Source: Protonemura montana
Taxonomy: Eukaryota > Arthropoda > Insecta > Plecoptera > Nemouridae
DNA: 64,000 bases
Assembly (NCBI GenBank): GCA_947568835.1
Contig: OX387603.1
Span: forward strand, 7,616,943 to 7,680,942
Direction of reading: 5' to 3'
Both the position numbers and the translations under genes were made by a program. The notes beneath the pieces are model-generated. The model was not told where the DNA came from. It did no database searches and saw nothing but the letters and a program-made list of their open reading frames with translations. Below are positions 42,884 through 61,795 of this stretch, piece by piece. Positions within the stretch are counted from its first letter, which is position 1, and every line of letters begins with the position of its first letter.

Positions 42884-43160
42884 GACCGAAAGGTTTGGCG
42901 TGTAGGAAACACCGGTTCTCGTGAGATTACCAAAGTTAAGTAACACTGCGCTGAGTCAGGTATTGGATGGGTGACCGTCATATACATGACCAGTTCTGTT
43001 CGGGAGGGAGGTTGGAGGGTTGAAAGTTAGTACAGCTTCATTCGCCTTGCTTATCAACCTCTCGATGGCATAGATTTGTGGAGGAATCCTGCTTTTTTAG
43101 TAGTACCGTCCTTCGGAAGGGACGTTAAGCCGGTGGTCCCCTTAGTGCTCTTCGCCAGGA
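42884..43160 (+). mobile_element. 5S rRNA-derived SINE, copy 3 (longest)
   Basis: The head has GTAGGAAACACCGGTTCTCG, then CAAAGTTAAGTAACACTG (box A) and GTATTGGATGGGTGACC (box C). The body includes CAGTTCTGTTCGGGAGGGAG, AAAGTTAGTACAGCTTCATT and TTATCAACCTCTCGATGG. It ends with CCTTCGGAAGGGACGTTAAG, CCGGTGGTCCC and a short tail near AGGAGTAGGC. The last block resembles a conserved central domain found in several animal SINE superfamilies; which one would need a repeat library. Confidence 0.82.
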
Positions 43161-59149: not shown

Positions 59150-59493
59150 TAGATTGCACTGTATTGAACTGCAGTCATATGTCTCTCGAAGTAGTATTTA
59201 AAAGAAAAATCTTTGGCACAGATCAAACATTTGTGAGGTTTTCATGTGTGAGATCTAGTCATGTGCCTTTTGAGGCTGCTCTCATCACAAACTCCCCTAA
59301 CACAGATAGTACACGTGTGAGGTGTCAAACGTGAGTGTGTAGCCATGTGTCTTGACAGGCTGCTTTTAAAAGAACATTCTTTGCCGCAGATTTCACTTAT
59401 GTGAAGTTTAAAGCCGGCATGGATAACCATGTGCCTCTTGAGACTGCCATAGGAAAATTCTTTGGTACAGAAGGTACATTTGTGAGGTTTTAA
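59150..59493 (-). pseudogene. C2H2 zinc-finger pseudogene, downstream part
   Basis: On the minus strand from the TTAA at 59493: LKPHKCTFCTKEF, SLKRHMVIH, a finger that has lost its first cysteine (ISEICGKECSF, SSLSRHMATH), and CTICVRGVCDES with SLKRHMTRSH. A TGA at 59242-59244 sits where the linker should have glycine (GGA). Reading on gives another finger, KPHKCLICAKDF and FERHMTA. Several tandem fingers with a nonsense codon and a lost zinc ligand indicate a decayed gene or a decayed exon. Its upstream part lies beyond the inserted element, at 61043-61140. Confidence 0.8.
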
Positions 59494-59660
59494 AGGAACA
59501 CCTTCAATTGAAATTTAAAAATTACTGTATGTGAGGAACATCAATTAATTAAGGATCCCGTAAAAAAGAAAAATCTTAAAAAATGTGGTGCATATTTTCT
59601 CGCGCTTTTTCTTTTTGGCGCGAAGCTCCGCTAGTGACGTCAGAGATAGGTAGTCTGCAG
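59494..59660 (+). repeat. Left terminal inverted repeat
   Basis: 167 bp, matching the reverse complement of 60877-61042 with about 11 differences and one single-base indel. It contains GGATCCCGTAAAAAAGAAAA, TTTTTGGCGCGAAGCTCCG and TGACGTCAGAGATAGG (a CRE-like TGACGTCA). Its inner end is AGTCTGCAG. The THAP frame starts 166 bp inside it, so the repeat may hold the promoter. Confidence 0.93.
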
Positions 59661-59825
59661 GGCTAGCAAGCGCTGCCCGGTTGCCGCGGCTGCTGCCAGT
59701 TAGTTCGTGCGATACCTCTTTGCGAGTAGGATTGTTTTTTCTCGTTACTATATTTGTCTCGTATATTTGTCTATGTGTGCTATGTCTAACGATTGCTACT
59801 TTATAAGTGAACCAACTGCAGAATA

Positions 59826-60293
59826 ATGGTGAACAATCATTGTGTTGTGTATCAGTGTTCGAACACGAAAGGCCCATTTTCTTTCCACAAATTTCCAGAT
59901 AAGAATAAGTTTCCTGGGATGTATCGGCAATGGTTGCATAAAGTTAATCGGACAGATTTTGTCCCAAGAAAATCCTCGTGTGTTTGTTCCGCACATTTTC
60001 AAGAAGATGATTTTGAAATTCGCAACAAACTAAAACTGCAATTGATGGGCGATGCAGTGAAATCCAGACCCATTTTGAAGAAAACGGCAGTCCCGTCGTT
60101 GCTCATGACTGGTAAATCACATTCGAATGTTTGTCCTCCACCGAAAAAGCGTCAGAAGTCCATGTTTTTGATCAATAAGGAGAAAGAGGAGTTATTGGAC
60201 CATGTGCCAGATTATTTGAACGAGCCGTCAACGAGCAAATCGCACCCGAATCCGCGAGTGAAACCCATCGCTGCAGCGTTGAATCCGACGTAA
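59826..60293 (+). CDS. THAP-type zinc-finger protein of the TIR element, 155 aa
   Basis: Residues 1-93 form a full THAP domain, the C2CH zinc-dependent DNA-binding module known from P-element transposase and animal THAP proteins. Visible ligands and anchors: C6, C11, W36, C54 and H57 followed by F58, and the closing AVPS-type motif at 88-91. The remaining 60 residues are basic and proline-rich (PPPKKRQKS) with no transposase catalytic domain. The ATG at 59826 has an A at -3 (AATAATGG). The 3' end overlaps the convergent frame by 82 bp. DNA binding, perhaps to the element's own ends, is inferred from the domain. Confidence 0.9.
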   Translation: MVNNHCVVYQCSNTKGPFSFHKFPDKNKFPGMYRQWLHKVNRTDFVPRKSSCVCSAHFQEDDFEIRNKLKLQLMGDAVKSRPILKKTAVPSLLMTGKSHSNVCPPPKKRQKSMFLINKEKEELLDHVPDYLNEPSTSKSHPNPRVKPIAAALNPT

Positions 60294-60784
60294 ATTCCAT
60301 CGTCTTCTGGGAACGTATTGCGAATGGAATTCACGACGCAGGACGGAATAACAACACGCCTATTTTTCCCTAATGCAGCCCACGAATTGACCCAGGAAAC
60401 AAATGATTTATAAGCCAAATGGCGCCAAACTTTATTTGAGGGACAGCGCATTTTGTCTTTAGTGTCTTTGGATGCTGTGTGCATAATCAGTTTATGCCTG
60501 GTAATGTTGAGCACATCAATGCTTTTCGTGATAACGTCGAATGACCCGTGCTCGGTAATGCACTCGTCATTCTGGCACAACGCTCGTATTTGTGGTGGCT
60601 CTTTACAGCAATGCGATTCTACGTCGCTGTCCATTGCAACGCAGTTACCACACGTACACCACGAGGTGTTTCCTGCTCGCCCTACAAAGGATTCTTGTAG
60701 TCTCCTTTCATCGGCTTTTTTGCAAATATTTTCTTCAATCTCGCTCTGAGTAAACTTCGGGTCTAAACTGAAAGGTCCAGCCAT
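60212..60784 (-). CDS. P2X7-type cytoplasmic ballast-domain protein of the TIR element, 190 aa
   Basis: The first ATG (60784-60782) gives 190 residues. Most of the protein matches the cysteine-rich zinc-binding cytoplasmic domain of the P2X7 receptor: WCTCGNC at 42-48, HCCKE at 58-62, C70, CITEH at 75-79, W120, RHLAYKSFVSW at 121-131, RRVVIPSCVV at 142-151 and YVGF at 165-168. There is no transmembrane segment and no P2X channel domain, so it is a soluble stand-alone version. The last 30 or so codons overlap the THAP frame in antisense. Stand-alone ballast domains are known in invertebrates; a function in transposition or host defence would be inference. Confidence 0.85.
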   Translation of the reverse strand: MAGPFSLDPKFTQSEIEENICKKADERRLQESFVGRAGNTSWCTCGNCVAMDSDVESHCCKEPPQIRALCQNDECITEHGSFDVITKSIDVLNITRHKLIMHTASKDTKDKMRCPSNKVWRHLAYKSFVSWVNSWAALGKNRRVVIPSCVVNSIRNTFPEDDGIYVGFNAAAMGFTRGFGCDLLVDGSFK

Positions 60785-60876
60785 TGCCACACTTCAATGA
60801 AACAATGCGACACTATCGCGAGCGCGCCGACCCTACCGACTCTGCAGCGCGCGTCTTACAGTCTTGCAGACTGCCG

Positions 60877-61042
60877 CTGCAGACTCCCTATCTCTGACGT
60901 CACGCACGGAGCTTCGCGCCAAAAAGAAAAAGTGCGAGAAATGTGCACCGCATTTTTTTAGATTTTTCTTTTTTACGGGATCCTTAATTAATTGATGTTC
61001 CTCACATACAGTAATTTTTAAATGTCAATTGAAGGTGGTCCT
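60877..61042 (-). repeat. Right terminal inverted repeat
   Basis: Reverse complement of the left repeat, about 93% identical by eye. Just inside it (60830-60885) GTCTTGCAGACTG and CTGCAGACT words are repeated in both orientations, resembling subterminal protein-binding sites. The minus-strand frame starts 93 bp inside this repeat. Confidence 0.93.
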
Positions 61043-61140
61043 TTAAGCCAGAGTGTCCAGTCATGTGTCTTGTCAGGGTGCTTTTATTCAGAGGGCCCAG
61101 CACCAATGTTTGATAAAGCTCTCATCCACGTAGAGAAAAG
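61043..61140 (-). pseudogene. C2H2 zinc-finger pseudogene, upstream part
   Basis: Minus-strand reading toward the element gives NKSTLTRHMTGHSG and ends in GGC-TTAA at the insertion site. The preceding half-finger is recognisable only by changing frame (CAFLYVDESFIKH), so at least one frameshift has occurred. Together with 59150-59493 it forms one interrupted zinc-finger array. Confidence 0.7.
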
Positions 61141-61660: not shown

Positions 61661-61795
61661 CACCGAACGGTTTGGCGTGTTGGAAACACCGGTCCTCGTG
61701 AGAACACCGAAGTCAAGCAACAAGCGCTGGGTCAGGTATTGGATGGGTGACCATCATACACACAGTTCTGTACCGGAGAGAGGTTATAGAAACAG
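61661..61795 (+). mobile_element. 5S rRNA-derived SINE, copy 4 (3'-truncated)
   Basis: CACCGAACGGTTTGGCGTGT, TGGAAACACCGGTCCTCGTG, CACCGAAGTCAAGCAACAAG and GTATTGGATGGGTGACCATC give the best preserved head of the family. After CAGTTCTGTACCGGAGAGAGG the body is lost. Confidence 0.78.

Follow-up and report, generated by a model that had tools for sequence, protein, structure and literature searches.

We consider it close to certain that the element at 59494..61042 of the window (the whole stretch of 64,000 nucleotides from Protonemura montana that was analysed) is a non-autonomous derivative, shortened by an internal deletion, of a very young Kol0-type Kolobok transposon that looks autonomous when full-length. 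The initial annotation had described this element as pairing a THAP protein with a P2X7-ballast protein, possibly as regulatory cargo, unlike the standard families of DNA transposons. Neither view held up: the full-length parent is a Kolobok-type element with a transposase and the protein KolX, and the two frames of the window copy represent the stump of the parental transposase and an almost complete KolX. The odd pairing is already explained by the published layout of Kol0 families, which according to the accessible text of Kojima and Bao (2022; PMC9587614) code for two proteins, a transposase and KolX, the latter with the P2X7 ballast fold.

The window element

The features of the element and its target are as follows (window coordinates).

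59494..61042, plus strand: internal-deletion derivative, very probably of a Kolobok (Kol0) element; 1549 bp without the TTAAs
59490..59493: TTAA target-site duplication, left
61043..61046: TTAA target-site duplication, right
59494..59660, plus strand: left terminal inverted repeat (TIR), about 167 bp
60877..61042, minus strand: right TIR
59826..60293, plus strand: truncated transposase frame, 155 aa, consisting of THAP, linker and antisense-KolX tail
about 59841-60101, plus strand: THAP domain (PF05485)
60212..60784, minus strand: KolX (P2X7-ballast protein), 190 aa compared to 180 aa for full-length KolX; matches PF20478 and P2X7 chains
60270..60272: deletion junction with GCT common to both sides; relative to the full-length copies, 1875 bp are gone
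59204..61086, minus strand: C2H2 zinc-finger array interrupted by the element (flanks only, outer limits approximate); repeats spaced by 81-84 bp, with a copy on the far side

The element proper opens with AGGAACACC and closes with GGTGGTCCT. Its inverted arms start at 59490 and end at 61046 (108 nt with 95% and 65 nt with 92% identity), and the two ends are 94% alike over about 170 bp. Together with the TTAA at both boundaries, this bears out the annotation as a TIR element with TTAA target duplication. Both domain calls were confirmed by a profile search of the two proteins against Pfam: the plus-strand frame matches THAP (PF05485, E = 4.1e-15, residues 6-92, profile positions 1-86 of 87) and the minus-strand frame matches P2RX7_C (PF20478, E = 4.5e-18, profile positions 64-191 of 192). 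As had been annotated, the frames point inward and are convergent; their starts are set back from the ends by 337 and 263 bases (TTAA counted). It is plausible that each is driven from its own repeat by a putative promoter, in which case the near-identical TIRs may act as both inward promoters.

Full-length copies and the origin of the window copy

Four full-length copies (L009, L010, L027, and L029; 3435-3441 bp with both TTAAs counted) were found in the same genome. In L009, the forward frame has 583 codons from the same THAP start, with its stop inside a predicted 117-bp GT..AG intron that is followed by a second exon; the joined frame codes for 689 aa. This intron is predicted from the GT..AG boundaries and is supported by the uninterrupted transposase of a second family (see below). 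The joined frame is open in three of the four full-length copies (L009, L027, and L029), and in L010 it stops after codon 234. KolX (180 aa) is encoded on the opposite strand, convergent from the right, in L009, L010, and L027; in L029, the exact KolX start string was not found, and the domain is present in an open frame of 185 residues.

The window copy aligns to positions 1-783 and 2659-3435 of L009 with one substitution, the pieces of 783 and 777 bases having a 3-base overlap. The missing 1875 bp include the catalytic core and the intron. In the THAP frame, codons 1-149 of the transposase (689 codons in all) lead into 6 codons read from antisense KolX; this frame is thus a stump of about a fifth of the transposase. 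KolX is nearly whole, its final 8 residues being swapped for 18 others which are antisense of the transposase frame. The earlier claim of two intact domains therefore stands for the domains but not for the proteins that carry them, and the absence of a visible transposase applies to the window copy only, while the full-length copies encode a THAP-DDE transposase of Kolobok type. The suggestion that the element is non-autonomous was supported.

Two further copies at other loci and with other flanks (L019 and L024) are identical to the window copy. Given their different loci, this derivative has moved since it arose. The three identical copies, and the good scores of both domains in the window copy, would also fit a two-gene THAP and ballast unit that is independent of any transposase lineage. 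We find this hardly credible, however, because full-length parents are present in the same genome, the deletion junction is the very point where each frame passes into the antisense of the other, and other derivatives of the same parent are devoid of KolX. Unrelated cargo is ruled out by the full-length parents. It had been foreseen that the frames might be decay products of a larger unrelated element; a larger element does exist, but it is a related one.

For the preferred reading as a deletion derivative, we envisage that the deletion would go back to an excision whose gap was repaired incompletely, with joining at a microhomology. The derivative could then have moved in trans, using the transposase of full-length copies and its own intact TIRs. 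THAP would bind the element ends, and KolX would be an accessory protein of transposition.

Copy census

The first 34 bases of the element were used as a pattern to search the 258-Mb genome with up to 3 mismatches, which detects ends that are uncut over this length and within the mismatch limit and misses all others. This resulted in 44 end matches (23 left-type, 21 right-type), each with 0 mismatches, and the reversed control gave 0 matches; the element is thus repeated. Twenty copies are two-ended, L025 is a head-to-head copy with two left ends, L030 has a left end only, and L026 a right end only. All 20 two-ended copies, as well as L025, have TTAA at both boundaries. Besides the four full-length copies, which are the longer, transposase-bearing versions that the initial annotation had proposed to look for, there are 16 shorter two-ended copies of 1135-1825 bp (both TTAAs counted).

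The full-length copies are nearly identical to L009 (L010: 99.8%, 6 substitutions; L027: 99.9%, 4 substitutions; L029: 99.7%, 5 substitutions and one 6-base length difference). Deletions aside, each of the 16 shorter derivatives has 1-3 substitutions compared to L009. Among the 21 copies, the 40-base flanks are alike only for L027 and L029 (cut-off: more than 25 of 40 ungapped positions), and these two loci are covered by one 4399-base alignment, element included, with 99.84% identity. They may represent one insertion which was duplicated with its surroundings, or an assembly duplicate; due to these common flanks, the number of full-length insertions may be three rather than four. A DNA search with the transposase core gave 13 matches: the four full-length copies, one partial copy (C5), seven diverged sequences (67-75% identity), and one match of 31 bases (in L018).

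The head-to-head copy (L025 501-2427) consists of two left halves (1-984 and 940-1) with TTAA at both ends, and is a palindromic transposition or repair product.

Classification

The assignment to the Kolobok superfamily rests on motifs, ends, and target-site duplication, which were set against published descriptions; the motifs were recognised by eye, from the accounts given in PMC9587614 and PMC6004289. TTAA is duplicated, and the ends (5'-AG and CT-3') conform to the RR..YY definition of PMC9587614. An N-terminal THAP domain (PF05485) is present, as is usual according to the available text of PMC6004289. The full-length transposase contains, by reading, the motifs SGDG, TDRH, DVWH, an H..H..C..H finger, and TGNLES. 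The full-length relatives thus have a DDE core with C/DxxH and a zinc finger between the second D and the E, a region which is deleted from the window copy; the E is encoded after the predicted intron. In Pfam, the full-length transposase has no match to a Kolobok family, only to Mutator and MULE, below the cut-offs. The second protein, KolX, with its homology to the P2X7 ballast (PF20478; P2X7 chains, E = 4.8e-7), points to Kol0.

The correlation with Kol0 Kolobok elements as described by Kojima and Bao (2022; PMC9587614, citing Kapitonov and Jurka, in the text accessible) extends to TTAA, RR..YY, DDE with DxxH and zinc finger, and a KolX with the ballast cysteines; the window copy differs in being devoid of the DDE core. 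Kolobok elements with THAP and TTAA have been shown in Xenopus, where, in the part of PMC6004289 that is accessible, T2-MITE/XKol elements are likewise described as Kolobok elements that are non-autonomous, have TTAA and AGG ends, and derive from THAP-DDE parents. While T2-MITEs are long-lived families of short elements (same source), the derivatives reported here retain 0.2-1.1 kb of either end and hardly differ from one another.

A piggyBac origin was ruled out by the RR..YY ends and the Kolobok transposase motifs, and a P element was ruled out because the duplication is TTAA rather than 8 bp. To our knowledge, the Drosophila P element has no KolX. The P element and its KP derivative (accessible text of PMC7776569) resemble the present case in having a THAP-headed transposase and internal deletions which leave a shortened protein (KP, 207 aa), but belong to another superfamily, with an 8-bp duplication.

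Deletion junctions and retention of the THAP domain

Eleven distinct junctions are present among the 16 shorter two-ended copies; all junction analyses refer to these (thus excluding L025, L026, and L030). Seven junctions have 1-4 shared nucleotides, and four have a filler of 3-10 nt. Both shared nucleotides and filler are expected of broken-off gap repair. Three junction types are present in more than one copy (783|2659 and 905|3035 in three each, 793|2660 in two); the other eight are single.

The left breakpoints fall between 744 and 1130 and the right ones between 2590 and 3233. As THAP ends at 612, the whole domain is kept at all 11 distinct junctions; the head-to-head copy keeps it as well. 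KolX is complete at one junction, nearly complete at two, cut further at six, and has lost its start at two. The chance that THAP is kept at all 11 junctions is 0.003 given the deletion sizes and 0.034 under a uniform model, in a post hoc test on 11 junctions of which two have a common left breakpoint. The left retained piece is longer than the right at all 11 junctions (Wilcoxon p 0.001). KolX in cis was rejected as a cause of the spread of a derivative: it is not needed, as the 905|3035 type, with most of KolX gone, exists in three identical copies.

The retention of THAP while KolX is often destroyed hints at either a KP-like repressor or a cis requirement of the left end. The left ~740 bp may hold cis sequences for mobility (putative subterminal transposase-binding sites), the protein content being irrelevant. 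The left-over-right asymmetry and the dispensability of KolX in cis, judged from the 905|3035 copies, are consistent with this; but eight of the 11 junction types are single-copy and may have formed in place without later transposition, and we regard such cis sequences as a tentative possibility. Less likely, in our opinion, is that the THAP-only deletion protein would be a functional, KP-like repressor of the autonomous element and that retention was favoured thereby. This would agree with the complete THAP at every junction and its low chance expectation under both models, with the KP precedent in P elements (accessible text of PMC7776569), and with the domesticated Kolobok relatives of Xenopus, which mostly kept DNA-binding motifs and lost the DDE; it was suggested for Xenopus Kolobok that DNA-binding remnants may suppress transposons (both from the accessible text of PMC6004289). 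On the other hand, the statistics are post hoc, from only 11 junctions with one left breakpoint occurring twice, a long left-end cis requirement or biased repair yields the same asymmetry, and the copies are too young for selection on the frame to be measurable. Biased repair or cis needs account for the retention of THAP as well as a repressor does. We are more doubtful still about the wider proposal that THAP-only proteins, some encoded beside a near-complete KolX in the same element, would repress or modulate the autonomous copies as regulators made by the family itself, as an independent parallel to KP of the P element. In the open-licence literature, PMC6004289 was the one relevant paper found on non-autonomous Kolobok elements with THAP or internal deletions, and no published test of a THAP-only Kolobok derivative for repressor activity was found.

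With open full-length copies and graded deletion derivatives, this very young Kol0 family offers a direct test bed for the THAP-only proteins and for the role of KolX. For the latter, types 783|2659 (nearly whole KolX) and 905|3035 (most of it lost) have each spread to three identical copies.

KolX and the P2X7 ballast domain

When the ballast frame of the window was compared to solved structures, P2X7 accounted for four of the five distinct sequences at E <=1 (best 4.8e-7), the fifth being a Wnt inhibitor (E 0.36). Judged from these sequence matches, KolX is homologous to the P2X7 ballast. The Pfam matches of the KolX frames include no P2X channel domain, and an AlphaFold model of the window KolX alone has a mean pLDDT of 32. 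As in the P2X7 ballast and Nanor-like proteins (accessible text of PMC7016195), the domain is homologous by sequence and has the cysteine pattern WCxCG..C. From P2X7 (residue numbering counted along the 595-residue chain), the RH pair and an Arg aligned with R578 are present in KolX, while Val and Glu take the places of the guanosine-site residues R574 and K583 (alignment reading; residue list from the accessible text of PMC7016195). Unlike the P2X7 ballast domain, KolX is free-standing and transposon-borne.

Free ballast domains across animals were described by Rump et al. (2020; PMC7016195), in the text of which the words "transposon" and "transposase" have 0 occurrences. The tail of P2X7 has been proposed to derive from KolX, a transposon protein: according to Kojima and Bao (2022; PMC9587614), P2X7 originated when a P2X4-like gene was fused to KolX. 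The idea in the initial annotation, that the ballast domain was on a mobile element before it joined a P2X channel, had thus already been in print. In the open-licence literature, PMC9587614 was the only paper found that has KolX together with Kolobok.

Related families in the same genome

A genome scan with PF20478 gave 24 matches, 13 in the family of the window element and 11 elsewhere; the 14 control genomes had 0. This survey covers KolX-bearing families, having used KolX for detection. A second family (L046/L050) codes for a 723-aa THAP transposase without intron and a convergent KolX, and has the ends TTAA AGGTAGACTCCGG / CCGGAGTCCACCT TTAA; its transposase (L050), 39% identical to that of the first family, passes PF20700 (Mutator) in Pfam. 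Nine further matches (L039-L045, L047, and L048) are 98.5-100% alike where aligned. The one of these that was read (L039/L049) has its transposase in broken frames, an open convergent KolX, and TTAA AGGGGCATTTACCC ends. The eleventh match outside the window family is at C16:78500. KolX identity among the three families is 34-39%, a divergence judged too large for dN/dS, with the cysteine pattern retained. Since the convergent layout of transposase and KolX occurs in 3/3 families read, it is no accident of one copy.

Apart from L046, all 10 KolX matches outside the window family are about 30-106 kb from a contig end, C28 itself being only 65 kb long. The nine on longer contigs all have the same orientation relative to the near end. 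The matched KolX stretch is without stop in seven of the 10. These contig-end copies look like a subtelomeric block copied between chromosomes.

Genomic setting

Flanks of the zinc-finger array are seen on the minus strand at 59150-59490 and 61047-61110 (C2H2 recognised by reading). When the flanks are joined into an empty site, the finger frame reads through the insertion point before a stop occurs further downstream; the insertion thus interrupts a zinc-finger gene or pseudogene.

On the plus strand of the window, 5S rRNA is matched above the Rfam threshold at two places, 61663-61776 (49.8 bits, E = 2.2e-7) and 42885-43005 (48.0 bits, E = 6.4e-7). Both are possibly dispersed genes or 5S-derived repeats. 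The start of contig C1 (L052 1-2000) carries a 98-bp tandem repeat with 20.4 copies and 99% matches.
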